A stretch of 64,000 bases of DNA from Peristeroidobacter soli. Its GTDB lineage: Bacteria > Pseudomonadota > Gammaproteobacteria > Steroidobacterales > Steroidobacteraceae. The DNA lies in NCBI RefSeq assembly GCF_004138485.1, contig NZ_RYEV01000004.1, positions 990,803-1,054,802 of the forward strand, in the 5' to 3' direction. Below, one piece after another: positions 5,856-32,642 of this stretch; position 1 is the stretch's first letter, and every line of letters begins with the position of its first letter. Position numbers and translations under genes: made by a program. Below the pieces are notes generated by a model. It searched no databases. It was not told where the DNA came from and was given only the letters and a program-made list of their open reading frames with translations.

Positions 5856-5866
5856 CGTGCTGCCCC

Positions 5867-6798: not shown

Positions 6799-8307
6799 CT
6801 AAGCGATGGATGCCAGCGTGTACAGAAATTCCGCGTACCCCATCGTCGCCTCGCGCAGGCCCGCAATCCGAGGATTGTTACTTTCGATGAGATAGAACTC
6901 GTCCGGCGCGTGCGCTTTGCCGCCAAACCCGAGTCCGAATTGATTGAAGGGCTTGCGCAGAGGCTCGCCGGTATAGATGTACCCGGGATAGGAGCCTGCG
7001 ATGCGCGGCGTGATGGTGTGCTCTATCCCCCGGCGCCGGAGAAATTCCTGTTCGGCGAGTACCAGGCCGCTCCTTTCAGAAGTCTCGGTGGGATCGTAGT
7101 TGCCGATGACCTTGATCTCGATGTCATCGAAGCCGCGCTTCGACAGGTGCGCGCGCAGTTTCGCCAGACAGTCCGCGGCCTTCATGTCGGGCACGATCCG
7201 GAAATCCAGCTTGGCCGTGGCACGCGTGGGCAGAATGGTCTTGCCTCCCGGGCCAGTGTAACCCGCGACCAACCCTTCGATGTTCACGGTCGGCTCGGAG
7301 GTCATGCGCTCCATGGCCTCGGCCAGCGGCAGGTCGTCGATCCATTTCTTGACGCCGAGCGATGCCTTTACTTCCGCGTCGGTGCTGGTGCCGTTGAGCT
7401 TGGCGAGCATCACACGCTGCCGATCGGTGAGCGGACGATAGTGCTCGAACCAGCCATCGATGGCTGGCGTGTTGCCGCCATCCTTCACCAACGTCGACAG
7501 CGCTTCGACCAGTCGCCACACGGGACTATCCACGGCGGCCTTCATGCCCGAGTGGATGTCGTTCACGGAGCCTCGATCCCAGCGCTCACCGCTTGCGATC
7601 AGCTCCAACTCGATCATGCCCTTGGCACCGAGGCTGATCGCCAATTCGCCCTTCAGGCCTTGCAGGCCCGTCGGCATGAAGACCGCGTCGGTTCGCTGCA
7701 ATTCGGCGAGCACCTCCGCATCCTTCAGAGCATTTTTCAGGTTGGGCGAGCCGATCTCCTCTTCACCCTCGGCGAGCAACACCAGATTCACCGGCAATGG
7801 CACACCGGCGGAGCGGAATGCATGAATGGCGGCGAGAAAAGTTCCTTCAGGCCCCTTGTGATTGCACGCGCCCCGCCCGCGCAGCGCACGGCCCATGGGA
7901 TGATCGAACATCACGGGCTCGAGCGGCGGCGACGACCAGCCGGGCTCATCGTATTGCTTCACGTCGTACATGAAGTAGAGCCCGATCGTTCGCTTCGCGC
8001 CCGCATCGAGCACGCCGAACACCGCGGGATTGCCGCCCGTGGCAACTTTGCGCACACGAGTGAAGCCTGCGTCGGCTGCGAGCTTCGCCATGTAGTCGGC
8101 GCCCTGCTCGACGTTGAGCTTTTCGGCAGCGACGGTCGGCAAGCGCATCCAGTCCTTGATGCGAGTCAGCGAATGTTCGAAGTCGGCGTCCACCGCACGA
8201 CGGATCGCTTTCAGCTTGTTGGCAGGCGGCGCCGAGGCCAAGGCCGCAGCGGACGAGAGCGTCGCGGCGGAGGCGATGGCGCCTTTGATCAATGTGCGTC
8301 GATCCAT
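6799..8307 (-). CDS. Exported M20-family peptidase homologue with altered metal ligands
   Basis: 502 residues; the ATG at 8307 is chosen over one at 8325 because GGAAG sits 5 nt before it and the predicted -10 (8339-8344) would leave the upstream one almost no leader. The N-terminus has a Tat-like DRRTLIKGA signal. The fold is clearly M20 (EGEEEIGSPNL, the dimerisation-domain NDIHSGM, C-terminal KAHAPDEF). However, the usual GHYD zinc motif reads FMYD (His to Met), the usual RGASDDKG reads RGACNHKG, and the third ligand region (usually an Asp) reads FMPTG. Activity may depend on an unusual metal site or be lost. It heads the ABC/M1 operon and belongs to the 26-bp-element regulon. Confidence 0.85.
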   Translation of the reverse strand: MDRRTLIKGAIASAATLSSAAALASAPPANKLKAIRRAVDADFEHSLTRIKDWMRLPTVAAEKLNVEQGADYMAKLAADAGFTRVRKVATGGNPAVFGVLDAGAKRTIGLYFMYDVKQYDEPGWSSPPLEPVMFDHPMGRALRGRGACNHKGPEGTFLAAIHAFRSAGVPLPVNLVLLAEGEEEIGSPNLKNALKDAEVLAELQRTDAVFMPTGLQGLKGELAISLGAKGMIELELIASGERWDRGSVNDIHSGMKAAVDSPVWRLVEALSTLVKDGGNTPAIDGWFEHYRPLTDRQRVMLAKLNGTSTDAEVKASLGVKKWIDDLPLAEAMERMTSEPTVNIEGLVAGYTGPGGKTILPTRATAKLDFRIVPDMKAADCLAKLRAHLSKRGFDDIEIKVIGNYDPTETSERSGLVLAEQEFLRRRGIEHTITPRIAGSYPGYIYTGEPLRKPFNQFGLGFGGKAHAPDEFYLIESNNPRIAGLREATMGYAEFLYTLASIA

Positions 8308-8367
8308 TATTTCTTCCAGAGCCAACGCGCCTGAACCGATACTAGCCAGCCGGTCCGTTGCCGGTCA

Positions 8368-8416: not shown

Positions 8417-9970
8417 TCATTTCGGCAGCGACGCCATCACCCGCTCGCGCACCAGCCGACGCGCGATCTTGCCAATACCGGTGCGCGGCAGATCCGCGAC
8501 GATATGAAACTCTTTCGGTCGCTTGTAGCCCGTCAGCCGCTCCTGGCAGAACTGCTTGAGGTCGGCTTCGAGCAGCGCCGTGCCTGGGGCGAGCGTGACG
8601 ACGGCATGAACGGCCTCGCCCCAGCGCTCGTCGGGAACGCCGATGACCGCAGCTTCCTTGACAGCGGGATGTCCGAGCAGAATTCCCTCGACCTCGTTCG
8701 GGATCACCGTGAGGCCGCCCGTCTTGATCATCTCTTTGACGCGTCCGTCGAGTACCAGGAAGCCGTCCTGGTCGAAGCGGCCGAGATCGCCGGTTCGCAT
8801 GCCCTTGCTGGTGAGGATCTGGTGGGTCGCCGCTCCATCCTGCCAATAGCCGGCGAATACCGTGAGGCTGCGAGCGACGATCTCACCCGACTCGCCGGGC
8901 CCGACCGGCTCGCCATCCGAATTCAACAGGACGATCTGCGCGCCCAGCATCGGCCGGCCGACCGTACCGATCTTCCGAAGCTGATCGGCGGGACTGCAGA
9001 CGGTGAGACACAGCTGCTCCATCATTCCGTAGAACTGCACGAAGCCCACGTTGGGCATGCGTTCGATCAGTGCGGTGATCAGTGGCTCGGGCATCCGCTC
9101 CGACGCATAGGTGATCGAGCGCAGCGACGTGGGAATTCTCGCTGGCGCGGCGTCGAGAATGCGACGAAGGGTCGTCGGGACCGCGTCGAAATGGGTGATC
9201 TGATACGCCTCGATCGCCTCCCACACGGCGGCCGCATCGAAGTGCGGCATGATCACATGCGTGGCCCGCCGCAAAGTCAACGGCAGCAGATGCTCCATGC
9301 ACGATGAGAACAACGGCAGGAAGTGCAGCGTGCGCTCGCCATCGTGCAGATCGAATTCGAGCGCCGCGGTCGAGGCGGCCGCGAGCAGACTGCCATGGGT
9401 ATGCACGGCACCCTTGGAACGGCCGGTCGATCCTGAGGTAAAGAACACCACCGCCGGATCGCTTGGAACCACCGGCGTCAGACTGCGCAGCTTCGATGCC
9501 GACGCGACCAGCTCCGCATAGGAATGGAACATCTTCTCCGGCGGACACTCCTCCAGACAAAAGACCCGTTCGATGCCGGCGGCCTGCAAGGCTTCGCCCT
9601 GCCCGGCGACGGCTGCGGCTTGCGACGGGCCGACGATCAGAACCTTGGGGCGAATCTGTTCGAGCGCCGCGTACGCGTCCTTCCAGGTCCACCAATGATC
9701 CAGCGGCGAGGCCATCGCCCCGAGCATCGGCACACCGAAGATGATCTCGACGAACTCGGCGCGATTGCCGATCCAGAGCGCGACCCGGTCGCCCTTGACG
9801 ATTCCCAATCCGGCCAGCGCGCCGGCCAGCCGCCGGGCCCGGTCGTGAACCTCCGCATAGCTCCACGCTTTGCCCTGAAAAATCACTGCCGTGCGGCCCG
9901 GTTCGGAGACCGCCGCCCGGGCAAGGATCGCATCCAATCGAGGCTCGCTGCCGTATTCGTGCGTGCTCAT
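8417..9970 (-). CDS. AMP-forming acyl-CoA ligase
   Basis: 517-residue class I adenylate-forming enzyme. P-loop FFTSGSTGRSKG near residue 176, A5 motif QFYGMMEQ, A7 motif RTGDLGRFDQDG, and the C-terminal catalytic lysine motif PRTGIGKIARR. It activates a carboxylic acid to its CoA thioester. The ligase is divergent from the ThDP lyase-like gene, and each has its own copy of the 26-bp element (B and B'), the same arrangement in the same regulon as the mutase operon. Pairing of a CoA ligase with a 2-hydroxyacyl-CoA lyase-like enzyme suggests a short 2-hydroxy or 2-amino acid as substrate; this is inference, since specificity cannot be read reliably here. Confidence 0.92.
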   Translation of the reverse strand: MSTHEYGSEPRLDAILARAAVSEPGRTAVIFQGKAWSYAEVHDRARRLAGALAGLGIVKGDRVALWIGNRAEFVEIIFGVPMLGAMASPLDHWWTWKDAYAALEQIRPKVLIVGPSQAAAVAGQGEALQAAGIERVFCLEECPPEKMFHSYAELVASASKLRSLTPVVPSDPAVVFFTSGSTGRSKGAVHTHGSLLAAASTAALEFDLHDGERTLHFLPLFSSCMEHLLPLTLRRATHVIMPHFDAAAVWEAIEAYQITHFDAVPTTLRRILDAAPARIPTSLRSITYASERMPEPLITALIERMPNVGFVQFYGMMEQLCLTVCSPADQLRKIGTVGRPMLGAQIVLLNSDGEPVGPGESGEIVARSLTVFAGYWQDGAATHQILTSKGMRTGDLGRFDQDGFLVLDGRVKEMIKTGGLTVIPNEVEGILLGHPAVKEAAVIGVPDERWGEAVHAVVTLAPGTALLEADLKQFCQERLTGYKRPKEFHIVADLPRTGIGKIARRLVRERVMASLPK

Positions 9971-10031
9971 CTGTTATGGCGAGAGTTGTCTGATGTGCCC
10001 GGATCTTAGCCAGCCGCGCCCGCCGGCATCT

Positions 10032-10057
10032 CTAATAGCGCTAATACACGGCATAAG
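10032..10057 (-). promoter_or_regulatory. 26-bp regulon element, copy B (CoA ligase promoter)
   Basis: Minus strand reads CTTAT-GCCGTGT-ATTAG-CGCT-ATTAG, the best match to the consensus. The -10 hexamer TAAGAT at 10003-10008 is preceded by TGGC and sits 23 bp from the element. Leader to the ligase ATG at 9970 is about 26 nt. Confidence 0.75.
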
Positions 10058-10088
10058 CGCCCATTAATCCCGCCCGACATAAGAGGGA

Positions 10089-10114
10089 TTTATCCGCTCC
10101 ATTATTTCTATTCG
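10089..10114 (+). promoter_or_regulatory. 26-bp regulon element, copy B' (ThDP enzyme promoter)
   Basis: Plus strand reads TTTAT-CCGCTCC-ATTAT-TTCT-ATTCG, a weaker match. The -10 hexamer TAGAAT at 10139-10144 has the standard spacing. It ends only 9 bp before the ATG at 10154, so the transcript would be almost leaderless. Confidence 0.6.
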
Positions 10115-10153
10115 CTGTCGGCGGACCGGCCGCGCGCCTAGAATTTTCGGCCT

Positions 10154-11866
10154 ATGACATCCAAACATGGTCCGTCCACGGTCGCCGCGGCGATCGCCCA
10201 TTTCATCGCGGCACAAGGCGTCAGCCGCGTTTACACCTTGCCCGGCTCGCATGTGAAACCCATCTGCAGCGAACTGGCGCGCCTCGACATCCGTATCGTC
10301 TCGACGCGCCACGAATGTTCGGCGGTCCACATGGCGCATGCCGAAGCGGATCTCACTGGACGCATCGGTGTCGCCATCGTGACGACCGGCCCCGGCCTCA
10401 CCAATGCAGTCACCGGCATCGCGAGCGCCTATCTGTCGCGCACGCCACTGCTGGTCATGTCAGCGCGAGTCCCTGATCCGCAAGCTGGCATGGGCGCGCT
10501 CGAAGAAGTGCCGCAGGCGGCGCTGGTTCGTCCCGTGTGTCGTCACGTTCGTGAGATTTCCGATGCGCGCCACGTGCTGTCCGGCCTGCATCAGGCCGCG
10601 ACTTTGGCTTTGGGCAGTGACGGGCCGCCAGGCCCGGTGTATGTCGACTTCACGCCCAACCTGCTCAAGGAGTCCATCCCGCAGTGGTATCTGGATCCGC
10701 ACTGGTTCAATCCCGTCGTGCGTCCTGCTCGCGTACCGCATGACGAAAGCATCGAGCGTGCGGTGGCATTGATTCGTAACAGCCGTCGGCCGCTCGCAAT
10801 CGGCGGACGTGGCGTGCAGGGCGCTGGCGCGGCGTTGGAGAAATTCCTGCAGATGTCCGGCTGCCTGTATCTCGACACTCGCGAAAGTCGCGGCACGCTG
10901 TCACCAGACAATCCCTGCTCCATCCCTGCGCTGCGCGGTCGTGCGATTGCCGAGGCGGATCTGGTCATCACCCTCGGCCGGCGACTGGATTTCGAGCTCG
11001 CTTACGGTTCAGGCGCGGTGTTCTCTGAATCTGCGCGCTTCCTTCGTATCGGTCGTAGTGCGGAGGAGCTGTCGGAGAATCGCTGCGGCGACGTTGAGGT
11101 CTACGCCGATGTCGATGCGACGTTGGAAGCGCTCGTGAATGCCGGCGCCAAACCGGCGGATGCGGATGTCGCCTGGAGAGACGAGCTCACTCGTGCAAAC
11201 ACCGCGAAAACTCGCTCGAAAGCGCCGAGTAAACCTGCGGGCGCCGACGGCCGTATGCATCCGCTCACGCTCATCGATGCCATCAACCGCGTGACCGACG
11301 ACGAGACCATCAGTATCGTGGACGGCGGCGATATCCTGTCATTCGCTCGTATCGGCCTGCGCGCGAATACCTATCTCGATCTCGGACCGTTTGGATGTCT
11401 CGGCTCCGGCGCACCGTATGCCGTGGCCGCAGTCCTGACGTTTCCCTCTCGCAGAGTCGTTGCGCTCATCGGCGACGGGTCATTCGGATTTGGCGCGATG
11501 GAAATCGAAACGGCCGTGCGCACCGGCGCGCGCGCGCTGTTCGTGGTGGCGAATAACGATGCCTGGAACATCGAACGCCAGGATCAGCTGATCAAGTATC
11601 CGGAGCAGGAGCTCGGCACGACATTGTCGCCGTCCCGCTATGACCTGCTCGCTCGATCGTTAGGCGCCTATGGCGAACGCGTGGAGCGTGCCGAAGATCT
11701 CGCGGCCGCCTTCGAACGCGGCCTGGCCAACCTACCGGCGGTGATCGATGTCGCGGTGACACGCGATGCCGTGTCGCCGGACACGAAGAGCGGCCTGGCC
11801 AATGTGCCGCCGCTCCACGCGACTCAATCGTGGGAAGATGCCGAGCGCCGCATGCTGGCGCGCTGA
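10154..11866 (+). CDS. ThDP-dependent enzyme, 2-hydroxyacyl-CoA lyase / acetolactate synthase family
   Basis: 570 residues in the three-domain ThDP layout: N-terminal Pyr domain with the catalytic glutamate in RHECSAVHMAHAE (~residue 54), central domain, and a C-terminal PP domain with the Mg/ThDP motif GDGSFGFGAMEIET followed by NNDAW. The FGCLGSGAPYAV stretch and the NNDAWNIERQDQ end of the motif recall oxalyl-CoA decarboxylase/2-hydroxyacyl-CoA lyase relatives more than biosynthetic acetolactate synthase. The likely reaction is C-C cleavage of a 2-hydroxyacyl-CoA to formyl-CoA and an aldehyde or ketone, but a decarboxylase is possible. No Shine-Dalgarno sequence is seen before the ATG. Divergent from the CoA ligase. 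Confidence 0.82.
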   Translation: MTSKHGPSTVAAAIAHFIAAQGVSRVYTLPGSHVKPICSELARLDIRIVSTRHECSAVHMAHAEADLTGRIGVAIVTTGPGLTNAVTGIASAYLSRTPLLVMSARVPDPQAGMGALEEVPQAALVRPVCRHVREISDARHVLSGLHQAATLALGSDGPPGPVYVDFTPNLLKESIPQWYLDPHWFNPVVRPARVPHDESIERAVALIRNSRRPLAIGGRGVQGAGAALEKFLQMSGCLYLDTRESRGTLSPDNPCSIPALRGRAIAEADLVITLGRRLDFELAYGSGAVFSESARFLRIGRSAEELSENRCGDVEVYADVDATLEALVNAGAKPADADVAWRDELTRANTAKTRSKAPSKPAGADGRMHPLTLIDAINRVTDDETISIVDGGDILSFARIGLRANTYLDLGPFGCLGSGAPYAVAAVLTFPSRRVVALIGDGSFGFGAMEIETAVRTGARALFVVANNDAWNIERQDQLIKYPEQELGTTLSPSRYDLLARSLGAYGERVERAEDLAAAFERGLANLPAVIDVAVTRDAVSPDTKSGLANVPPLHATQSWEDAERRMLAR

Positions 11867-11992
11867 CTACCGCAGCCCCAGCACCTGATGAATAAATGCC
11901 TGCGCGCCGCAGGCGGTGGAGAACTCACCGCCGTACGCCGCAAGAGCGAGCGCAATCAACAATGTCGCAAACAGACAGTCTCGCTGACTCAC
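11867..11992 (-). CDS. Possible 41-residue small membrane or exported protein
   Basis: A GTG start at 11992 sits 4 nt after GAGGAG, 16 bp downstream of the 3-hydroxybutyryl-CoA dehydrogenase stop. The product has a short hydrophobic stretch (CLFATLLIALALAAYGG) and two cysteines, then ends exactly against the convergent ThDP gene. Good ribosome site and spacing argue for a real last gene of the mutase operon; the length gives no family recognition. Could be chance. Confidence 0.35.
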   Translation of the reverse strand: MSQRDCLFATLLIALALAAYGGEFSTACGAQAFIHQVLGLR

Positions 11993-12008
11993 GCTGCTCC
12001 TCGATTGC

Positions 12009-12860
12009 TCAGTAGCGATAGAACCCGCGGCCGGTCTTGCGGCCGAGCCAGCCGGCCGCAACGTGGTTACGGAGAATGGTCGCCGGACGATACTTATCGT
12101 CGCCCAGATCCCGATGTAACACTTCGGCGATGGCCAGACACGTATCGAGACCAATCAGGTCGGCCAGCTGCAGCGGTCCCATCGGATGATTCAGGCCAAG
12201 ACGCGCGCCGGCATCGATATCCTCGGCCGTGCCCACGCCTTCCTGCAGAACGAAGCACGCTTCGTTGATCAGCGGAATCAGAATGCGGTTGACCAGGAAG
12301 CCCGGCGCGTCGTTGCTGGTCACGACCGTCTTGCCCATGGCCTTGGCGAGCGCGACGGTCGACTCGTAAACGGCGTTGTCGGTCGCGAGGCCGCGAATGA
12401 TCTCGACCAGTTGCATGACCGGCACCGGGTTCATGAAGTGCATGCCCACCACGCGCTCCGGCCGCTTGGTCTGCGCGGCGATGGTGGTGATCGAAATGGA
12501 CGAGGTATTGGTCGCCAGGATCGACGCCTTCTCACAGGCCGCGTCCAGCTTGGCGAATAGCTGCTTCTTCAGCTCGACATTCTCGGTCGCCGCCTCGATG
12601 ACCACGTCGCAGTCCGCCAGGCCCGCAAGCTCGCCCACCGGCGTAATGCGCCCCAAAATCTCCGCGGACTTCGCCGCCTCGAGCTTGCCCTTCTCGACCA
12701 GCTTGGCGAGCCCCCTCTCGATCTTCTGCTTGCCGGCGGTCGCCGCGGCCAACGAGATGTCGGCCAGCGCCACCGAATAACCGCTCTGTGCCGCGACCTG
12801 CGCGATACCGCCGCCCATCTGACCGCTGCCGAGGACGCCGACTGACTTGATCTGACTCAT
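12009..12860 (-). CDS. 3-hydroxybutyryl-CoA dehydrogenase
   Basis: 283 residues, the usual Hbd/PaaH length. Rossmann motif GSGQMGGGIAQ at residues 11-21, catalytic-region HFMNPVPVMQLVEII, and the C-terminal helical domain NRILIPLINEA. It oxidises (S)-3-hydroxybutyryl-CoA to acetoacetyl-CoA with NAD(P). The gene follows the large mutase subunit by 62 bp on the same strand, as expected for the step that takes the rearranged C4-CoA ester into central metabolism: mutase or Kal products reach it directly or via crotonyl-CoA hydration by an enzyme encoded elsewhere. Confidence 0.93.
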   Translation of the reverse strand: MSQIKSVGVLGSGQMGGGIAQVAAQSGYSVALADISLAAATAGKQKIERGLAKLVEKGKLEAAKSAEILGRITPVGELAGLADCDVVIEAATENVELKKQLFAKLDAACEKASILATNTSSISITTIAAQTKRPERVVGMHFMNPVPVMQLVEIIRGLATDNAVYESTVALAKAMGKTVVTSNDAPGFLVNRILIPLINEACFVLQEGVGTAEDIDAGARLGLNHPMGPLQLADLIGLDTCLAIAEVLHRDLGDDKYRPATILRNHVAAGWLGRKTGRGFYRY

Positions 12861-12922
12861 GCTCTACTCCCGCGAAAAGCGCTTCAATACTAAATCTTAC
12901 AGCACTGAGCAATTTGCCACGG

Positions 12923-14614
12923 TTACACGATCATCGGCTCCTCGTACGCCCCCCAGACCTCGCGCAGAGCGCCGCAGATCTCGCCCAGCGTCGCCCTCGC
13001 CTTGGCCAGCTCGATGGTCTTGGGCAACAGGTTCACATCGGACGAGCGCGCCTGCTCCTTGAGCTCTTTCAGCAGCCGCTGGACCAACGCGGTGTCGCGC
13101 TTGGCACGCACGGCATTCAATCGGTCGATCTGCAGTTGCGTGCATTGCTCGTCGTACGGATGAATCTCGGCGTCGAGCGCGCGGGCATTTTCATCGACAT
13201 AGCGATTCACGCCCACGGAAATCTTCTCGCCGCTATCAATCTTCTTGAAGATGGCATAGGCCGAGTCCGCCAGCTTCTGCTGGAACCAGCCCTCCTCCAC
13301 CAGCTTGACCGCGCCGCCCAGCTGGTCCACTTCATCGAGCACTTTCCAGATCTCCTGCTCCATGTCCCAGGTCAGGCGCTCGACGAAGTACGAGCCGCCG
13401 AGCGGATCGACCACCGACGTCACATTGATCTCGTCGCGGATGATCTGCTGAGTGCGGATCGCAAGCTTCATCGCCTCTTCGGTGGGAATCGCAAAGGCTT
13501 CGTCGAGGCCGTTGGTGTGCATGCTCTGGCAACCACCGAGCACCGCGCCGAGCGCCTGGATGGCCGTGCGCATCAAGTTGTTGTGATACTCGACCTTGGT
13601 CAGGCTCATGGCCGCGGTCTGCACGTGCACGCGCAGGCGCATGGACTCCGGCTTTTTCGCTTTGAAACGCTCCGACATCACTTTCGCATAGACCCGTCGC
13701 GCCGCTCTGAACTTGCAGATCTGCTCGAAGAAGTCCTGGTGGCTGATGAAAAAGAACGACAGCCGGGGCGCGAAGTCGTCGATATCCATGCCGGCCGCGA
13801 TGACTTCCTCGCAATACGCGATGGTGAACGCCATGATGAACGCGATTTCCTGGATGGCATTGCCGCCGACATCGGACAGGTGATAGCCGCTCAAGCTGAT
13901 CGGATTGATCTTCGGCGTCACCCTGGTGCTGTAGACGATCATGTCTCGCAGCAGCCTCACCGCCTGTCGCACCGGATAGATCCATTCCTTCTGCGCCACG
14001 TACTCCTTCAACGGGTCGGCCTGCAAGGTGCCCGCGAGCCTGGTCAGATCGCAGCCACGCTGCTCGGCCACGCTGATGAACATCGCGTAGATCACCCACG
14101 CCGACGGATTGATGGTGAGCGAGACGGAGATTTTCTCCAGGTCGATGCCGTCGAACAGCCGCTCGATGTCTTCGATGGTGTCGATGGCCACCCCGACGCG
14201 CCCGACTTCGCCGAACGCCATCGGATCGTCCGAATCGAAGCCCAGCAGCGTCGGCAAGTCGAAGTCGGTGGACAGGCCGGTCTGGCCGGTCTCGATCATG
14301 TATTTGTAGCGACGGTTGGTGGCCTCGGGATTGCCGAAGCCCGCCACCTGACGAATGGTCCACGGGCGACCGCGATACATCGTCGGATAGACACCCCGAA
14401 CGAACGGATACGCGCCGGGAAAGCCCAGCTCGTCGGCCGGAATATCGGCAACGTCGGCCGCGGTGTAGACCCGCTTCAGAGGAATGCCGCACTCGGTTTG
14501 ATAGTCGGTTCGTTCCTCCGCCCGACCCTTGAGCGCGGCGGCGAGCTCGTTCTGCTCCCACTGCGTCTGTTGCTTGCGAAGGTCGGCGATCGCCGCGTCC
14601 GAGAAAAGCTTCAT
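12923..14614 (-). CDS. Adenosylcobalamin-dependent acyl-CoA mutase, large subunit (2-hydroxyisobutyryl-CoA mutase type)
   Basis: 563 residues: the TIM-barrel catalytic chain of the methylmalonyl-CoA mutase superfamily without a B12 domain, which is encoded separately at 15606. Counting from the ATG, residue 90 is Val (RQVAGFG), residue 117 Asp (STDFDLPT) and residue 208 Gln (VAQKEWIYP). Methylmalonyl-CoA mutases have Tyr and Arg at positions 90 and 208, isobutyryl-CoA mutases Phe and Gln; Asp117 is the hallmark of 2-hydroxyisobutyryl-CoA mutase, which has Ile90. So the substrate probably carries a polar group on C2 or C3, hydroxyl or amino. Given the Kal-like gene in the operon, 2-aminoisobutyryl-CoA to 3-aminobutyryl-CoA is a serious candidate. 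It starts 2 bp after the MeaB gene. Confidence 0.93.
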   Translation of the reverse strand: MKLFSDAAIADLRKQQTQWEQNELAAALKGRAEERTDYQTECGIPLKRVYTAADVADIPADELGFPGAYPFVRGVYPTMYRGRPWTIRQVAGFGNPEATNRRYKYMIETGQTGLSTDFDLPTLLGFDSDDPMAFGEVGRVGVAIDTIEDIERLFDGIDLEKISVSLTINPSAWVIYAMFISVAEQRGCDLTRLAGTLQADPLKEYVAQKEWIYPVRQAVRLLRDMIVYSTRVTPKINPISLSGYHLSDVGGNAIQEIAFIMAFTIAYCEEVIAAGMDIDDFAPRLSFFFISHQDFFEQICKFRAARRVYAKVMSERFKAKKPESMRLRVHVQTAAMSLTKVEYHNNLMRTAIQALGAVLGGCQSMHTNGLDEAFAIPTEEAMKLAIRTQQIIRDEINVTSVVDPLGGSYFVERLTWDMEQEIWKVLDEVDQLGGAVKLVEEGWFQQKLADSAYAIFKKIDSGEKISVGVNRYVDENARALDAEIHPYDEQCTQLQIDRLNAVRAKRDTALVQRLLKELKEQARSSDVNLLPKTIELAKARATLGEICGALREVWGAYEEPMIV

Positions 14615-14616
14615 CT

Positions 14617-15609
14617 CTATCTCTCTTGATTCCAGCCCAGCAACACGTTGGCGGCGGTGCGGGGATCGGATTCCCGCCTCACCACGGCTTGCAAGTGCTG
14701 CTCGAGATCGTTGGCGCCCGCATCGAACTGCTGCTGAAACAGATGCCGGGCCATGTTGAAGATGCGCGTCCTGCAGTTGTTACGCTCGCGAGCCGCGAAC
14801 TCGCCGCTGTCCTGCAGATGTTTCCAGTGATTGCGCAGCGTCGTCTGCAGGCTTTCCATGTGTTCGCCGGAGACCGAGCTCACCGCGAGGACGGGAGAAC
14901 TCCACGTCGAATGCGACGTGCCGCTGCCCAATGCGAGCATGCCTTTGATCGCTGCGACGGTCGCCGCGGCTTCGGGTTTATCGGCCTTGCTCACCACGTG
15001 GATGTCGGCGATTTCCAGAATGCCGGCCTTGATGGCCTGGATGTCATCCCCCAACCCGGGAGCCGACAGCACGACGACCGTGTGGGCGGCGGTCACGATC
15101 TCCACTTCATCCTGACCGACGCCGACAGTCTCGATGATGATGGGCGAATAACCGGCGGCGTCGAGCACATCGACCGCTTGCAGCGTCGAAGGCGCAAGGC
15201 CGCCAAGATGGCCGCGCGTCGCCATGCTTCGAACGAACGCCTGGTTTGCTTCGGCCGCATCGTTCATGCGCACTCGATCGCCGAGGATGGCGCCGCCTGA
15301 AAATGGACTGCTGGGATCGACCGCCACCACGCCCACCTTGTGACCTTCCAAGGTCAGCGCTTTGATCAAGGACGCCACGAGCGTCGACTTGCCGGCGCCC
15401 GGCACCCCCGTGATGCCGATGATGTGTGCCTTGCCCGTATGTTTGTAGATCTCAGCGAGCGCTGCCGATGCTTCGGCGTAGTTGCCTTCCGCTCGCGAGA
15501 TCATGCGAGCGATGGCCAGCCTGGAGCCGGCCAGCACCTCCGGCACCAGCTCGAGCGAAGCAACGTACGTCGGACGCTTCGCTTGGTCGAAGCGGGCAAC
15601 GCTAATCAT
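14617..15609 (-). CDS. MeaB/ArgK-family GTPase, mutase chaperone
   Basis: 330 residues from an ATG at 15609 that overlaps the small-subunit stop by 4 bp (ATGA). G1 loop GVPGAGKST, switch region DPSSPFSGGAILGDR, ETVGVGQDE, and VSKAD as the guanine-specificity motif. Proteins of this family load adenosylcobalamin into acyl-CoA mutases and protect or reactivate them. Sitting between the two mutase subunits, it is the dedicated chaperone of this enzyme. A longer upstream start is rejected because it would overlap the small subunit extensively. Confidence 0.95.
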   Translation of the reverse strand: MISVARFDQAKRPTYVASLELVPEVLAGSRLAIARMISRAEGNYAEASAALAEIYKHTGKAHIIGITGVPGAGKSTLVASLIKALTLEGHKVGVVAVDPSSPFSGGAILGDRVRMNDAAEANQAFVRSMATRGHLGGLAPSTLQAVDVLDAAGYSPIIIETVGVGQDEVEIVTAAHTVVVLSAPGLGDDIQAIKAGILEIADIHVVSKADKPEAAATVAAIKGMLALGSGTSHSTWSSPVLAVSSVSGEHMESLQTTLRNHWKHLQDSGEFAARERNNCRTRIFNMARHLFQQQFDAGANDLEQHLQAVVRRESDPRTAANVLLGWNQER

Positions 15610-16016
15610 ATGCGCCCACGAGCTTCGACCAGTTCCGTGATGGTCGTGACGATCAGATCGGCGCGTGCCTCCTGAGGAATGATCACATCCACGCCGCATT
15701 CCCGCAGCGGCTCATAGTCCTGCTCGGGAATCACACCGCCCGCGACGACGAAGATGTGCTCGGCCTTGTGATCCCGCAGGCATTTGCAGAGCTCGCGGAA
15801 CAACGGCACGTGCGATCCGGACAACAGACTGACGCCGATGACGTCCACGTCCTCCTGGATCGCTGCGTTGACCACCTGCGTCGGCGTTTTGTAGAGGCCG
15901 GTGTAAATGACTTCCATGCCCGCGTCACGGAGGATGCGGGATACGACCTTGGCGCCGCGGTCATGGCCATCGAGTCCCAGCTTGGCGACCAGGACGCGGA
16001 TCTTGTTGGTGCTCAT
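15606..16016 (-). CDS. Cobalamin-binding small subunit of the acyl-CoA mutase
   Basis: 136 residues forming a stand-alone B12-binding Rossmann domain: LDGHDRG with the cobalt-coordinating His18, SLLSGSH, and VAGGVIPEQD. The length equals that of small subunits of 2-hydroxyisobutyryl- and isobutyryl-CoA mutases. The start at 16016 overlaps the stop of the Kal-like gene by 4 bp, so translation is coupled; a longer start upstream would run through that gene in another frame. Partner of the chain at 12923-14614. Confidence 0.95.
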   Translation of the reverse strand: MSTNKIRVLVAKLGLDGHDRGAKVVSRILRDAGMEVIYTGLYKTPTQVVNAAIQEDVDVIGVSLLSGSHVPLFRELCKCLRDHKAEHIFVVAGGVIPEQDYEPLRECGVDVIIPQEARADLIVTTITELVEARGRI

Positions 16017-16405
16017 TTGACGTTTCGTTGTTTGTCGAGGGGAACGACGGCGACATCCGTCATCCTGGCGACCAGCAAGGGCTCGGCCAGCACATTGGCC
16101 GCCGAATCGTTCGGATCGACCAGCTCGATGAGCTTGTGCGCCGTGCACTCGATGGTTCGCGACGATTTGCCCACGGCGACGATCTTCGCGCGAATCTCCA
16201 GAAAGTCGCCGCTGCGGACCGGCGCGAGGAATTCGGCGTTCATCACGCGCGACAGGCCTTCGTCACCGTCGTGTCGGATGAGAAGCTCGGTAACGGCATC
16301 GCCGAACAATTGCACGACGCGCGCCCCATCCACCAAGCCGCCCGCGTAGTGACCATCCGCCGTGGACATGCGCACGCGGATGACCCCTTCCAATGATCCG
16401 GACAT
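16013..16405 (-). CDS. Kal-like hotdog protein, probable 3-aminobutyryl-CoA ammonia-lyase
   Basis: 130 residues with the single-hotdog pattern and family motifs of 3-aminobutyryl-CoA ammonia-lyase from lysine fermenters: ADGHYAGGLVDGA, LFGDAVTELLIRHDGDEG, EFLAPVRSGDFLE, and a VVPLDKQR end. That enzyme releases ammonia from 3-aminobutyryl-CoA to give crotonyl-CoA. It is the first gene of the B12 mutase operon, with a CAGGGGAG ribosome site and element C 57 bp upstream. No lysine-fermentation genes (Kce, KamDE) are nearby, so its substrate here would have to come from the mutase. A MaoC-type hydratase or thioesterase is the alternative, but the residue match favours Kal. Confidence 0.75.
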   Translation of the reverse strand: MSGSLEGVIRVRMSTADGHYAGGLVDGARVVQLFGDAVTELLIRHDGDEGLSRVMNAEFLAPVRSGDFLEIRAKIVAVGKSSRTIECTAHKLIELVDPNDSAANVLAEPLLVARMTDVAVVPLDKQRNVK

Positions 16406-16461
16406 TCGTACTCCCCTGGCAGTCGAGCAAAGATCTTAGCCGTGCCCCGGATCGCTCATCG

Positions 16462-16487
16462 CTAATAGCTCTAATACGCGAGATAAG
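16462..16487 (-). promoter_or_regulatory. 26-bp regulon element, copy C (Kal-mutase operon promoter)
   Basis: Minus strand reads CTTAT-CTCGCGT-ATTAG-AGCT-ATTAG. The -10 hexamer TAAGAT at 16433-16438, preceded by GGC, is 23 bp away; predicted leader to 16405 is about 20 nt. Confidence 0.75.
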
Positions 16488-16516
16488 GCGGCGTAATAGC
16501 GGCGGCATAACGCGCT

Positions 16517-16542
16517 CTTATGAGCGCCATTACCGCAATTTT
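16517..16542 (+). promoter_or_regulatory. 26-bp regulon element, copy C' (M19 dipeptidase promoter)
   Basis: Plus strand reads CTTAT-GAGCGCC-ATTAC-CGCA-ATTTT, facing the M19 gene. The -10-like TACGAT at 16567-16572 has 24 bp spacing. This places transcription start near 16579, downstream of a possible start codon at 16520, and supports the ATG at 16610. Confidence 0.65.
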
Positions 16543-16609
16543 CTTCCGCTGCCGGCGCCGCTTACCTACGATGCCCGCTGAGAAAACCAACAGTCGCAGG
16601 GGACGGATC

Positions 16610-17758
16610 ATGACTATCAGCAGACGCGGATTCATGCAGGCGGGCGGTGCGCTGGCGTCCGGCGCGGCGCTGGGCTGGGCGCTGCCGGCCCTGGGCAAGG
16701 CTCAGGACGTTCCGGTCCTGATGAAAGAAGCCGAAGATCTATACGCGCGCTCCATCATCGTCGACATGCTGTGCGACGAGTTCCGCGACCAGGAAGGCTT
16801 GAAGTTCATCAAGGACAGCGCCGTCACTTGCATGAGCACCACGCTCGGCGTTCGCAAGCCGGAGCGGGACAATGCCAAGGGCTCCTACATGCTCAACGCG
16901 TTCCCGCTGGAAGCCGCCGTCGAGGATTGCGCCGCCTGGAACCGGTTCATCAAGGAGAACAGCTCCGTCCTGGCACCGGCCCGCTCCGTTGGTGACATCC
17001 GTCGCGCCAAGCAGGAAGGCAAGCGCTCGGTGATGCTCAACTTCCAGAACTGCCCGATCGAGGGCCGGCTGGAAAACCTGGAGATGTTCCAGGCGCTCGG
17101 CGTCCGCACCATGCAGCTCACGTACAACGAGCGCAACGACATCGGCGACGGCTCGACCGAACGCACCGACGCGGGCATCAGCACCTTCGGCTTGTCGGTG
17201 ATCGAACGCATGAACGAGCTGGGCCTCATGGTGGACAGCTCGCACTCGGGCCACCAGACCAGCTTCGACGCCATCGAGTTCAGCAAGAAGCCCTCGATCT
17301 TCTCCCACACCAATTGCGCGTCGCTCAATCAGCATCCTCGTAACAAGACCGACGAACATATTCGCAAGCTCGCTGCTAAAGGTGGCGTGATGGGCCTGAC
17401 GACGGTCAATGTCATGGTCAAGCGCGATCTGCCGGTGACCATGAGCGACTTCATCGATCACATCGACCACATCGTGAAGCTGGTGGGCATCGATCACGTC
17501 GGCCTGGGCAGCGACACCCTGGTGCGCGGCTGGCCCACCGACCCGAAAGACAAGGAAGCCTTCCTGCAAGCCTACGGCGAGCCCTACTTCAAGGACACCT
17601 ATCGCTTCCGGTATCCGCTGGGGACGGAAGGCTTGAACGACGAGCACAAATGGAAATATCTGACCGCCGGGCTGATCAAGCGCGGTTACAAAGAGGAGGC
17701 CATCGTGAAGATCCTGGGCGGCAACTGGCTCAGGGTGTTCGGTGAGGTCATCGGCTGA
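16610..17758 (+). CDS. Tat-exported M19 membrane dipeptidase homologue
   Basis: 382 residues from the ATG at 16610 (AGGGGACG ribosome site). Twin-arginine signal SRRGFMQAGGALA. The renal dipeptidase fold is clear: NFQNCPIEGRLENL, VDSSHSGHQT, FSHTNCASLNQHPRNKTDE, DFIDHIDHIVKLVGIDHVGLGSD. The usual first zinc motif D-x-H-x-D reads DMLCD, so the first histidine ligand is a leucine; the remaining histidines and the bridging-Glu region (IEG) are present. M19 enzymes cleave dipeptides, often with D- or unusual C-terminal residues. It shares the divergent regulatory region with the Kal-mutase operon. Its last 11 bp overlap the convergent S8 peptidase gene. Confidence 0.88.
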   Translation: MTISRRGFMQAGGALASGAALGWALPALGKAQDVPVLMKEAEDLYARSIIVDMLCDEFRDQEGLKFIKDSAVTCMSTTLGVRKPERDNAKGSYMLNAFPLEAAVEDCAAWNRFIKENSSVLAPARSVGDIRRAKQEGKRSVMLNFQNCPIEGRLENLEMFQALGVRTMQLTYNERNDIGDGSTERTDAGISTFGLSVIERMNELGLMVDSSHSGHQTSFDAIEFSKKPSIFSHTNCASLNQHPRNKTDEHIRKLAAKGGVMGLTTVNVMVKRDLPVTMSDFIDHIDHIVKLVGIDHVGLGSDTLVRGWPTDPKDKEAFLQAYGEPYFKDTYRFRYPLGTEGLNDEHKWKYLTAGLIKRGYKEEAIVKILGGNWLRVFGEVIG

Positions 17759-20700
17759 CGACCTCATCTCGTACGGGCACCCACATCAACAGCGCCACGG
17801 CATCAGAGCCATTTGCCGCGGCCACGGCTCGCGCCTGCGGAAATCTCACGCCCTGCACGCCAACCCGAAACATCGCAGCCAGCTCGAAGCCTGCAGGCGC
17901 TGGCTGCCTCGGCCACAGATTCAGATCCACGGACCAGGCATCGCCAGGTCGACGCTGAATCATGCCATCGGTCGTCGCTAGCGAACCATACGAAGGATGG
18001 GCCATTGCCTCGGTGAGTCGAACGCTCGCCGCTCCCCTGCCTCGCGCAACACTCACCACTTTCCATCGACCCGCCGATGGGTTCGCCACCACGATCTGTC
18101 TGTCACGAGCGTAGCTGTCGTGATTTTTGGCGGGCAGGCACGTAGCGCCGCTGCAATCGTAGAGATGAATGTCGACCGTCGCGGCATCCCGATTCGTTAC
18201 CTCAGTCCCGACCATCAGCCAGGACGCGCCGGCGATCACCTCGATCTCACGCTCCACCCGCTCGCCGGCGCGCAGCTGCAGATTGGTTTCTCTCCGTGCC
18301 GCAAGCGGCGCGGACATCAGGCCGCCGACGAAAGATGCATAACGATTGCTGAGCGTCGCCTGCCCGTTTTGCTGCTTTAGATCGACGGAGTAGATCGAAG
18401 CAGTGGTCGTCACTGCGGCCGCCGGCAGCACCTCGTTGGCCGGCACCGACCAGTCGTGCTCGGTCGCATCGGCGGAATCGACCAGAGTCACCTGCCAGAC
18501 ACCGGGCATGGGGCGGAACACCGACAGTCCACCGGACGCCGACAGCGTCTCGATGGTGCCGTACTCGACCATCTGGTAGTTGTCGGGCGCGTGCAGAAAC
18601 ACGCTGATCTTCGGGCGTTTCGAACCCGCGCTGAACCGGAACAGCTCGACCCCCTCAGGCACGTCGAAGAAGAGATTGTGGCGACCCGGCCGATCCAGCG
18701 AGACCTCTTCGCTGACCTCGAAGCGATTCTCGGCCGTGAACGCGTGCGGCACGACGATGGTCACAGGCACCGTTGCAATCTCGACACCTGCGCGCTCCAG
18801 CCGAAGCAGATCGCTGTAGACCCGCGGCTCATTCACCGCGATCTGAATCTGCAGAGTCACCGCCTGGCCGAGTGGCAACTCCACGGATGCACGAGTCTCG
18901 AATGCATGCTGACCGGCTCCTTCCCAGGACAGCGCGTACTGAACGGGCGTGCGCGGTCCGGTCTTCCGCTTCAACGTGATCTCACGCGTGCCTCGCATGC
19001 CCGGCTTCCAGCCGTCGCGCTCGAACAAGCCACTGCCGACGTTCGGCACAGGCAACCGATCGCTCACCGCCGTTCGAACCGGCGCGGAGACTTCGATGAT
19101 TTCGACAGTCTCGCGAGCCGCCGCCTGCAGATGGCGCCAGGCTGCATCGACCTGAACCAGCCCGCGCCCTTGTTTATAAGTATCGATGTCCGGCAGGCGG
19201 CGCGCGGACTCGCGCATGGCCCGGTGTACACGATTGCCATCGACCGCCAGTCGCTCACGCTTGGCGGCGCCAACCAGCAGCGCCGCTGCTCCCGCCGCTA
19301 CAGGCGTTGCACATGAAGTGCCGCCGCAAATGTCATAGCCGGGCGGCAGCTGGTAGACGCCACTGCGTCGCGCGCGATCGCGATCCCATCTGAATCCTAC
19401 GGCAAGCGACATCGGCGTCGCCGGCGCAATCAGGTCCGGCTTCAACGCGCCCGTTCCGGCGGGCCCCTCGGAGCCGACCCAATGCAGGCTGTCCGCATTG
19501 CGGCTGTGAATGCCGAGATTGACGTAGCTGTTCTCGGCGCTCTGATACGCGCCAACGGCAATCACAGACTCCGCCAGCGCCGTGTCCATGACGTTGCCCA
19601 TGCCGATCACGTTGTCCGCCGTGACGAACGCAGGCTTCGAATGTCGTGCCTGCAGCCTCTCGATGATCGTTGCCGGCACGGAACGGCCGTCCCGCGCCAG
19701 ATGATAGACGCCCGAAAGATACAAATTGCCCTCGATCAGCACCACATCGACCTGAGGATGCGTGAAGGCCGTGATGAGCCCGCGAACGAACGTCGCGATG
19801 GAATCGTTGCCGTGCGCGGAGATCGCCAGCAACTGCGCCCCCGGCGCAACGCCATCGATGCGGCCGGCCGGCGCCCGGTTCGCAGCCGCGGCACCGGCCA
19901 CCGCGCTCGCATGGTTGCCGACCCCGAAGTTGAACGACAGCCGATCGCCTTCCCTCTGCAGCGCGTACGCAACCGTATCCCGCACCGGCGTTTTCGGATC
20001 GTCGCGGCCGACGATGCCGAATTGGTGCGTGCGACGATATTCGCCCACCGCAAGCTCATCCGAAAAATCGCCGTCGAGATCGGTATCGAGCCAGGCTTGC
20101 TGGCTGCGCTCGGACCACAACACAGGATAGGAGATCAACACTCCCGCGGCCGTCTCCTGTTCGGTGGCCGGCACTGCATTCTGCGACCAGACCTTGTGGC
20201 CGATCTCATAAATGCGCTGTACGCCGCCGTCAGTGGACAGCACCGCCAGACGCGCCATGCGAAACGCGCCGTCGAAGGGCACCGAATACGTCTGACCTCG
20301 ATGCGTGATCTGCCGAGAACGCGACGTGAGCGACGCCGAGAAGCGCGAAGTCCAGAATTCACCCATGCCCTCGGACTTCGCATCTAGCGTCGGTAGCGTC
20401 GCGGGCAGATTGATCACATCCAGAAACTTCGGAATCCGCTCGCCGCTGGCGGACCACGCGGTCTGCAACTCGGGCAGCAGGAAATCCGGGAACCATTCCA
20501 CGTGCGCAATCACGACACCGCGAGCGTCGTTGCCACCGAGACGTTTACGAAAAGCGACGCCGTCCATGTCTTTCAGAATGTCGTACGGATGTTCGAGGTT
20601 CGGCGCTCCGAGCTGCGGCGGCCAATCCGCACGCACGTCCCGCACAGGCGTCGCGGGTTTGTCGACCACGGCCTCAGCCGGCGCTTTCGGTGGCGACCAC

Positions 20701-21047
20701 GGCGGCGACTCCCAACCGAACAGCGCCTCGCCATAGCGCCCCCGAAAATTGTCCAGCTCGGCCGCGGCGATCGACGAATGATCCAGAAACTTCCGAATGC
20801 GCACTGTCGGCAGCACGGCCGTGAGGTAGTCGACGTCCTTGCGAACATAGTCGACGCGACCGCCCTCCTTGCGGACGCGATCGATCACTTCCCCGGTCTT
20901 GCCCTGCGCAGCAGCGATGGCAATGACCACATAGGGCTCGCCATTCGCTTCATACAGCGCCAGCTTGCTGGATTCGACCGCGTCGAGGCTCCATGCGCGC
21001 GAGGTCAGCAGCGCCAACCACGGCGCCAGCCATAGCAGATTCTTCAT
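17748..21047 (-). CDS. Secreted S8 (subtilisin-like) serine peptidase with Asp-to-Glu in the triad
   Basis: 1099 residues from the ATG at 21047 (GAGGG ribosome site), with signal peptide MKNLLWLAPWLALLTSRAWS. An N-terminal prodomain-like region is followed by the catalytic domain: the position of the usual Asp is Glu184 (VVIAHVEWFPD), His379 lies in VGNHASAVAG, oxyanion Asn479 in VTADN, and Ser578 in GGTSCATP. A ~190-residue insertion lies between the first two triad positions and includes a DTDLDGDFSDE acidic loop. The C-terminal ~450 residues are beta-rich and probably accessory domains. It follows the S9 peptidase gene in a receptor-peptidase operon. Probably secreted or periplasmic. Confidence 0.9.
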   Translation of the reverse strand: MKNLLWLAPWLALLTSRAWSLDAVESSKLALYEANGEPYVVIAIAAAQGKTGEVIDRVRKEGGRVDYVRKDVDYLTAVLPTVRIRKFLDHSSIAAAELDNFRGRYGEALFGWESPPWSPPKAPAEAVVDKPATPVRDVRADWPPQLGAPNLEHPYDILKDMDGVAFRKRLGGNDARGVVIAHVEWFPDFLLPELQTAWSASGERIPKFLDVINLPATLPTLDAKSEGMGEFWTSRFSASLTSRSRQITHRGQTYSVPFDGAFRMARLAVLSTDGGVQRIYEIGHKVWSQNAVPATEQETAAGVLISYPVLWSERSQQAWLDTDLDGDFSDELAVGEYRRTHQFGIVGRDDPKTPVRDTVAYALQREGDRLSFNFGVGNHASAVAGAAAANRAPAGRIDGVAPGAQLLAISAHGNDSIATFVRGLITAFTHPQVDVVLIEGNLYLSGVYHLARDGRSVPATIIERLQARHSKPAFVTADNVIGMGNVMDTALAESVIAVGAYQSAENSYVNLGIHSRNADSLHWVGSEGPAGTGALKPDLIAPATPMSLAVGFRWDRDRARRSGVYQLPPGYDICGGTSCATPVAAGAAALLVGAAKRERLAVDGNRVHRAMRESARRLPDIDTYKQGRGLVQVDAAWRHLQAAARETVEIIEVSAPVRTAVSDRLPVPNVGSGLFERDGWKPGMRGTREITLKRKTGPRTPVQYALSWEGAGQHAFETRASVELPLGQAVTLQIQIAVNEPRVYSDLLRLERAGVEIATVPVTIVVPHAFTAENRFEVSEEVSLDRPGRHNLFFDVPEGVELFRFSAGSKRPKISVFLHAPDNYQMVEYGTIETLSASGGLSVFRPMPGVWQVTLVDSADATEHDWSVPANEVLPAAAVTTTASIYSVDLKQQNGQATLSNRYASFVGGLMSAPLAARRETNLQLRAGERVEREIEVIAGASWLMVGTEVTNRDAATVDIHLYDCSGATCLPAKNHDSYARDRQIVVANPSAGRWKVVSVARGRGAASVRLTEAMAHPSYGSLATTDGMIQRRPGDAWSVDLNLWPRQPAPAGFELAAMFRVGVQGVRFPQARAVAAANGSDAVALLMWVPVRDEVVSR

Positions 21048-21073
21048 CGTGTGCCCTCGAGGCCGAACGGGAG

Positions 21074-23725: not shown

Positions 23726-23730
23726 CACGA

Positions 23731-31648: not shown

Positions 31649-31660
31649 GCTTGCATCTCC

Positions 31661-32539: not shown

Positions 32540-32642
32540 GGCAGTCCTCGCTGTACAGCGCGGCCTCCCTGGGCCGCAATCGTTATTTGCAGGCACCGCG
32601 CGGCATCAAGACGCGGGGCGTCCCCATTCATTCTCGGGTCGA

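Follow-up and report, generated by a model that had tools for sequence, protein, structure and literature searches.

A cobalamin-dependent acyl-CoA mutase operon in Peristeroidobacter soli as a candidate route for breakdown of alpha,alpha-dialkyl amino acids

We analysed a 64,000-nucleotide stretch of the genome of the gammaproteobacterium Peristeroidobacter soli (contig NZ_RYEV01000004.1, positions 990,803 to 1,054,802; hereafter the window), which contains a five-gene operon encoding a Kal-like protein, the two subunits of a B12-dependent acyl-CoA mutase, a MeaB-type GTPase, and a 3-hydroxybutyryl-CoA dehydrogenase. Together with a nearby acyl-CoA ligase gene, the operon probably (rough probability 0.6) serves the breakdown of an alpha,alpha-dialkyl amino acid; alpha-aminoisobutyrate (AIB) is the likeliest candidate and isovaline a close second. 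The mutase belongs to a clade of its own, relatives of the operon are linked to 2,2-dialkylglycine decarboxylase (DGD), and DgdR-type regulators accompany the clusters. The genes, the clades, and the linkage to DGD and to DgdR-type regulators are read directly from the sequence.

Genes and layout of the operon

The operon comprises the following genes, in order of transcription:

16405-16013, minus strand: Kal-like, putative CoA-dependent ammonia lyase of the hotdog superfamily (130 aa)
16016-15606, minus strand: B12-binding small mutase subunit (136 aa; TIGR00640, 142.1 bits, over the cut-off)
15609-14617, minus strand: MeaB-type GTPase chaperone (330 aa; TIGR00750, 318.5 bits, cut-off 240.75)
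14614-12923, minus strand: large mutase subunit, type 1, with V90 and Q208 (563 aa; TIGR00641, 662.8 bits, over the cut-off)
12860-12009, minus strand: 3-hydroxybutyryl-CoA dehydrogenase (283 aa; PRK05808, 418.4 bits, cut-off 408)

All five genes were located on the minus strand, with the content and order given by an initial annotation made from the sequence alone. The 4-bp overlaps that it reported among the first three genes are both present when counted from ATG starts: at 16013-16016, between the Kal-like and small-subunit genes, and at 15606-15609, between the small-subunit and MeaB genes. The MeaB and mutase genes are separated by 2 bp, and the mutase and dehydrogenase genes by 62 bp. 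Promoter and terminator scans of positions 11800-16600 returned no more signals than in shuffled sequence. Chance adjacency of the genes was dismissed because conserved gene sets occur in two phyla.

The mutase belongs to a clade distinct from 2-hydroxyisobutyryl-CoA mutase

The closest solved relative of the large subunit is 2-hydroxyisobutyryl-CoA mutase (HCM), at 715 bits versus 460 bits for mitochondrial methylmalonyl-CoA mutase, and the closest solved chain of the small subunit is the HCM small subunit (4r3u_C). In a tree, the HCM type is the sister group of the clade that contains the window mutase (type 1), while a second mutase from the window's genome and those of two Gemmatimonadota form another lineage (type 2). 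The window mutase is 56% identical to the HCM-type enzymes of Methylibium, Xanthobacter, and Agrobacterium, which are 80-84% identical to one another, and 84-85% identical to mutases on Sinorhizobium and Shinella plasmids. Among 200 genomes of the window's family there is no other near-type-1 mutase, the best match outside the window's genome scoring 513 bits versus 1271.

We presume that large-subunit positions 90 and 208 (corresponding to Tyr89 and Arg207 of methylmalonyl-CoA mutase) and the small-subunit site of HcmB Asp117 bear on substrate specificity. In the sequences aligned, position 90 is Val in type 1 (8/8) and type 2 (3/3), Ile in the HCM type (6/6), Tyr in methylmalonyl-type enzymes (4/4), and Phe in both isobutyryl-like enzymes; position 208 is Gln in type 1, type 2, and the HCM type, and Arg in the methylmalonyl type. 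The site of Asp117 is Glu in all 10 type-1 sequences (Glu116 in the window), Asp in all seven of the HCM type, and Gly in all three of type 2. The window mutase accordingly stands outside the HCM clade, has neither I90 nor the Asp117 equivalent, and is not clustered with a PaaK-like 2-hydroxyisobutyrate ligase. Methylmalonyl-CoA was rejected as the substrate, with V90 and Q208 replacing Tyr and Arg; isobutyryl-CoA was rejected as the likeliest substrate on the Phe at position 90 of isobutyryl-like enzymes, position 208 not being discriminating.

Relatives of the mutase are encoded beside DGD

In a Gemmatimonadetes metagenome-assembled genome (locus L008), a 446-aa gene 5.5 kb after the Kal gene, on the same strand, encodes DGD (751 bits, versus 222 for the next kind of enzyme), and the gene immediately upstream of the type-1 small-subunit gene in Shinella likewise encodes DGD (664 versus 220 bits; PDB search). 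On plasmids, the 20 records with a mutase of at least 80% identity are the same 20 that have a DGD of at least 88% identity, each pair lying within 2 kb (421 records with a mutase match and 59 with DGD; sets and distances compared by eye). These 20 records represent two genera only, Sinorhizobium and Shinella, and are not independent; the three that were opened have the same gene order as the type-1 genome loci.

The type-1 genome loci were identified by surveying 297 genomes from the family that includes genome G903, presumably Rhizobiaceae to judge from the Sinorhizobium and Shinella plasmid relatives. G903 itself was found through a Kal-like gene (44-46% identical) in the same locus, beyond a thiolase gene and one for a protein that binds branched-chain amino acids. 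Eleven genomes have a mutase match at E <= 1e-200: seven of type 1 (83-86% identity) and four of the HCM type (56-59% identical to the window mutase and 81-82% to that of Methylibium). Each of the seven type-1 loci encodes, in this order, a divergent DgdR-type LysR regulator, DGD, the small subunit, MeaB, the mutase, a crotonase, and a ligase. Each of the four HCM-type loci has a ligase 69-72% identical to that of Methylibium, and over the 16-20 kb read none shows a match to DGD, DgdR, or crotonase (tblastn, E <= 1e-12). A crotonase gene is also present in L008 and L027 of the three type-2 loci.

Two further observations concern the plasmid loci. In Sinorhizobium sp. K101 (L031, 6098-7539), DGD is split across two frames near its start; in the related records C101 and M103, the match covers the full length. 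In Shinella (L032, 1-2628), genes for a carboxylase alpha subunit, methylmalonyl-CoA mutase, and epimerase precede the DGD-mutase block, an arrangement that would suit propionyl-CoA from isovaline.

DgdR-type regulators accompany clusters in which DGD was not found

We take the DGD locus to be the one whose genes are named dgdA and dgdR. The LysR regulator encoded beside a lone Agrobacterium DGD, used as a query, has one strong match in the window's genome (258 bits; next match, 113 bits), located ~4 kb from the MeaB gene of a second Kal-mutase cluster and ~24 kb from the window operon. In genome G698, the sole match at E <= 1e-15 is a LysR gene inside the cluster; in genome G566, the DgdR-type match is on another contig. 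In a 13-sequence tree, the LysR proteins of these three genomes group with a DGD-adjacent LysR of Caballeronia (support 0.90), and these three and all seven DGD-adjacent LysR proteins stand apart from three other LysR proteins (support 0.83). Since a DgdR-type regulator is found near clusters without a detected DGD, the type of regulator suggests an alpha,alpha-dialkyl amino acid as the inducer and hence as the substrate.

Second cluster and spread of the Kal-mutase pair

A whole-genome search located a second Kal gene (72% identical) and a second mutase gene (47%) in the window's genome. The second cluster lies just before window position 1 (L003, G000:C3:971001-990802), the two mutase genes being ~16 kb apart. 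In L003, one strand encodes, in order, the second mutase large subunit, its small subunit, an acyl-CoA ligase, the second Kal, the second MeaB, a cobalamin adenosyltransferase, and an amino-acid permease, whose best model is the branched-chain amino acid transporter BcaP, below cut-off; the other strand carries an S15-type gene followed by the LysR gene. Two Gemmatimonadota share this type-2 Kal-mutase cluster.

Searching genome_contigs with the window Kal yielded one locus, L008, and a search of viral_contigs with the Kal alignment found no relatives. The genome surveys detected Kal in one of the 200 genomes taken from the window's family (E <= 1e-5), one of 369 from the class, two of 398 from the phylum, and two of 298 from the phylum to which L008 belongs (E <= 1e-10 for the last three); the window's genome is counted in the family, class, and phylum sets, the sets overlap, and only some candidates were scored in certain genomes. 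In total, the surveys yielded five Kal copies in four genomes, all five within 7 kb of a B12 mutase gene and four in tight gene rows with gaps below 20 bp. The Kal-mutase adjacency for which the initial annotation proposed a search recurs in every survey copy; plasmid Kal homologues (10 records, 35-55% identity) mostly lie elsewhere. Those at L018, L019, and L022, on Rhizobium and Streptomyces plasmids, have as neighbours genes for adenylating enzymes and carrier proteins together with ectoine synthase or further ectoine genes, a setting that is apparently biosynthetic.

Identity of the Kal-like protein

The best model for the first protein of the operon is the Kal model NF052388, at 135.7 bits; the curated cut-off is 160, so the protein is not a strict member. 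Two Kals score 196.6 bits (Fusobacterium) and 194.2 bits (Acetoanaerobium), and the Kal-like protein is 55% and 50% identical to them, respectively, over almost its full length. It also matches beta-alanyl-CoA ammonia lyase (PDB 4mtu, E 2.3e-18) and retains 15 invariant columns of Kals and hotdog homologues, including H19, Y20, D36, E49, F59, and E70, in an alignment of 10 sequences that contains two Kals and no beta-alanyl-CoA lyase. A simple thioesterase was rejected: the best non-Kal NCBIfam model reaches 21 bits, and PDB thioesterases match at E >= 0.1.

Consistent with the earlier statement that no other lysine-fermentation gene is nearby, none was found among the 27 window proteins scanned (up to position 54491), and lysine fermentation was set aside as the role of the operon. 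PF09043 (D-lysine 5,6-aminomutase) gave no match in the window's genome (0/1), and likewise none in 14 control genomes (0/14).

Proposed route

In the route we propose, the ligase would convert AIB to 2-aminoisobutyryl-CoA, and the two-subunit adenosylcobalamin-dependent mutase, maintained by MeaB, would shift the carbonyl carbon of the thioester from C2 onto a methyl group to form 3-aminobutyryl-CoA. By homology, the Kal-like protein would then release ammonia to give crotonyl-CoA, a crotonase would hydrate crotonyl-CoA, the 3-hydroxybutyryl-CoA dehydrogenase would form acetoacetyl-CoA (the last two steps being standard chemistry), and a thiolase would complete the flow of AIB carbon to acetyl-CoA. 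Isovaline would follow the same steps, the mutase yielding 3-aminopentanoyl-CoA, and the two mutases of one genome could divide AIB and isovaline between them. Where a relative lacks Kal, ammonia is probably eliminated by the crotonase-family protein encoded in the block, as BvaB does with beta-valinyl-CoA (PMC4619459).

Neighbouring lyase and ligase

Two genes lie beyond the distal end of the operon; like the second Kal-mutase cluster, they go unmentioned in the initial annotation:

10154-11866, plus strand: thiamine diphosphate (ThDP)-dependent 2-hydroxyacyl-CoA lyase, AcHACL type (NF058623, 658.2 bits, cut-off 600; PDB 7pt1, 453 bits)
9970-8417, minus strand: AMP-forming acyl-CoA ligase, of the family of ligases inside type-2 Kal-mutase clusters

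The ligase shares 67-73% identity with its counterparts in L003, L008, and L027 and has no BLAST match at E <= 1e-5 to the Methylibium (2-hydroxyisobutyrate-type) ligase. The lyase retains the AcHACL residues H44, T88, L127, I492, and E493, the last being the catalytic Glu (E474 in the window protein), and has Glu117 in place of Q128. Glu is also found in the G698 lyase, and Gln in the Methylibium ThDP protein. The retained AcHACL residues are those named in PMC8760513. AcHACL acts on 2-hydroxyisobutyryl-CoA, and its Q128 contacts a water molecule bound to the substrate hydroxyl. The change from Q128 to Glu is a possible change of lyase substrate, and such a lyase might cleave an amino instead of a hydroxy acyl-CoA. 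The window lyase has no match in the G566 or G903 genomes at E <= 1e-60, and, the window itself aside, none in any type-1 locus that was read.

ThDP enzymes were also seen at two other loci. The Methylibium HCM cluster has one near its mutase genes (L033, 10583-12343; 46% identical to the window lyase), and ~4 kb past the Kal-like gene of G903 lies a ThDP-type open reading frame, IolD-like from its first residues (L036, 2702-4579), which is unmatched by the window lyase at E <= 1e-12.

Evidence against the route and alternative readings

Several observations weigh against the AIB route. The Kal assignment is its weakest link: two Streptomyces hotdog proteins with other neighbours (ectoine-like clusters) outscore the window protein on NF052388 (145-146 versus 135.7 bits), although the window protein is the more similar to Fusobacterium Kal (55% versus 46-48% identity). 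No B12 acyl-CoA mutase was recognised at seven opened loci of the 10 plasmid Kal homologues (H4, H6, and H8 excluded), as judged from annotated features or, for two unannotated loci, from a list of open reading frames. Conversely, Kal is absent from the stretches read in six of the seven type-1 survey loci and in the three opened plasmid loci, and most relatives of the mutase that were opened have a crotonase-family enzyme instead of a nearby Kal. The acidic residue of the small subunit is absent from type 2 (3/3), and therefore a single binding mode cannot account for both types. A crotonase is needed if the product is an enoyl-CoA; no crotonase match was found in window positions 1-36000 or in L003, and the crotonase for these clusters would therefore be encoded elsewhere in the genome. 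As for DGD, none was found in the window's genome (best match, 37%), the five further DGD loci opened, chosen among records or sites lacking a type-1 mutase, list no mutase (5/5), and a second AIB route looks redundant where the block already encodes DGD for removing AIB. Finally, a lyase with the catalytic Glu adjoins the window operon and recurs beside the G698 cluster (83% identical); an adjacent 2-hydroxyacyl-CoA lyase fits a hydroxy-acid substrate and keeps a 2-hydroxyisobutyrate reading alive. The initial annotation had suggested 2-aminoisobutyryl-CoA as the mutase substrate from the coupling to Kal. That suggestion gains independent support from the DGD and DgdR-type linkage in other genomes, and loses some from the sub-threshold Kal score, the scarcity of Kal among relatives, and the adjacent lyase.

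In one alternative reading, the mutase is an HCM variant that would convert 2-hydroxyisobutyryl-CoA to 3-hydroxybutyryl-CoA, the substrate of the dehydrogenase, with the Kal-like protein as a hydratase, thioesterase, or accessory protein. The substrate would come from 2-hydroxyisobutyrate, or from acetone and formyl-CoA through the lyase, which passes its model and keeps E493; a lyase and a mutase have been proposed for acetone use in Desulfococcus (PMC7176365). HCM is the closest solved relative, the Methylibium HCM cluster combines its ThDP enzyme with a 3-hydroxybutyryl-CoA dehydrogenase 51% identical to that of the window, and the apparent lack of a crotonase near the operon would be expected, since none is needed if the mutase yields 3-hydroxybutyryl-CoA. 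Such a mutase would require neither the Kal that the operon has nor the crotonase of the type-1 loci. The separate clade, the differences at both specificity positions, and the window ligase without a match to the HCM-type ligase count against it, as does the fact that crotonase, DGD, and DgdR accompany type-1 and not HCM-type mutases, and that the lyase is unmatched in the other type-1 loci read and in G566 and G903. On balance we consider the HCM-variant reading unlikely. A related and highly improbable scheme is ketone salvage, in which DGD would convert AIB to acetone, the lyase would add formyl-CoA, and the mutase would isomerise the resulting 2-hydroxyisobutyryl-CoA. DGD and the lyase are each found beside such clusters across the group, but none of the three genomes with a window-like Kal is known to hold both: the window's genome (G000) has the lyase without DGD, G566 has DGD without the lyase, and in G698 the lyase is present while the 19 kb read contain no DGD (no genome-wide search for DGD was made). 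The scheme also leaves unexplained why a ligase, for which it has no need, lies in or near every cluster, and why the lyase has no match in type-1 loci beyond the window's.

The Kal-like protein might alternatively act, through the ligase, on free beta-amino acids (3-aminobutyrate or beta-peptides), with an unrelated substrate for the mutase. A precedent is the degradation of beta-valine, for which a ligase acts together with a CoA ammonia lyase, with no mutase in the portion of PMC4619459 consulted. At all five annotated loci opened, plasmid Kal homologues have adenylate-forming or CoA ligases as neighbours and no mutase among the listed genes, and an S58-family peptidase is encoded at window positions 40758-41960; we take the S58 family to include beta-peptidyl aminopeptidases. 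Against this stand the five survey copies of Kal, none more than 7 kb from a mutase gene and four in closely packed rows with it, which make the free beta-amino acid reading quite improbable.

Gene surroundings

The surroundings of the clusters are rich in genes for peptidases of families M20, M19, S8, S9, S15, and S58 (window, by Pfam; S15-like in the other loci, by BLAST), TonB receptors, and amino-acid permeases. Genes of these kinds (peptidase, TonB receptor, or permease) lie at the following positions:

Window: 6799-8325, 16520-17758, 17748-21110, 21074-23737, 32802-34721, and 40758-41960
L003: 7765-9681 and 16877-19291
L027: 9421-11331

It is only a suggestion that such surroundings would suit the use of peptides with unusual residues, such as peptaibols. 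Separately, the window contains two pairs of genes, each encoding an ABC ATPase and a 1200-aa membrane protein (2244-6760 and 28025-32596), with an M1 peptidase domain in the second. L008 has a like pair (8900-13414), 63% identical to the second window pair, between its Kal-MeaB genes and DGD.

Novelty and comparison with known systems

The quaternary alpha carbon of AIB makes it resistant to ordinary transamination. PMC7782822 describes two bacterial routes for AIB: decarboxylation by DGD and oxygenation by a monooxygenase. In open-access full texts, we found no mention of aminoisobutyryl-CoA and no joint occurrence of alpha-aminoisobutyric acid, mutase, and cobalamin; dialkylglycine decarboxylase with mutase gave off-topic cases only, and aminoisobutyr with adenosylcobalamin and mutase was off topic among the matches listed. 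A B12 route would apparently be a third, so far undescribed, way of AIB breakdown. The fuller proposal is that a cobalamin-dependent 2-aminoisobutyryl-CoA (or 2-amino-2-methylbutyryl-CoA) mutase, a member of the methylmalonyl-CoA mutase family acting on an alpha-aminoacyl-CoA, evolved in two separate lineages and was coupled to CoA-dependent ammonia elimination, giving a third route, independent of oxygen and decarboxylation, for alpha,alpha-dialkyl amino acids such as those of peptaibols. This proposal is in our estimate evenly poised between right and wrong. If the B12 route is real, acyl-CoA mutases would gain a new substrate class; the block conserved in 20 Sinorhizobium and Shinella plasmid records, where the mutase, if annotated, is labelled only as methylmalonyl-CoA mutase family, would be explained; AIB use would become testable in genetically tractable soil symbionts; and the mutase could be a possible enzyme for making beta-amino acids from alpha-methyl amino acids.

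The window operon resembles several known systems in part. Like HcmAB of Methylibium and Aquincola (PDB 4r3u), it encodes a B12-dependent acyl-CoA mutase of two subunits that has Gln at the Arg207 site and an acidic small-subunit residue, and its cluster includes MeaB; it differs in its 56% identity, in V90 for I90 and Glu for Asp117, in having no HCM-type ligase, and in relatives tied to DGD, DgdR, and crotonase. It shares with lysine fermentation a protein 50-55% identical to Kal, although one below the NF052388 cut-off and with no lysine-fermentation neighbours seen. With the DGD locus it has in common a DgdR-type regulator near the second Kal-mutase cluster, and DGD in related gene blocks, whereas no DGD was found in the window's own genome and a CoA ligase and B12 mutase are added. 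Its neighbouring lyase shares H44, T88, L127, I492, and E493 with AcHACL and differs from it by Glu at Q128. The AIB monooxygenase pathway of Rhodococcus wratislaviensis has the same proposed substrate, but, in the part of PMC7782822 available, proceeds by oxygen-dependent hydroxylation to alpha-methyl-D-serine with no B12 step. The BvaA/BvaB pathway for beta-valine, as presented in the accessible text of PMC4619459, likewise joins a ligase to a CoA-dependent ammonia lyase acting on a beta-aminoacyl-CoA; there, BvaB is crotonase-like and not a hotdog protein, and the pathway has no mutase.

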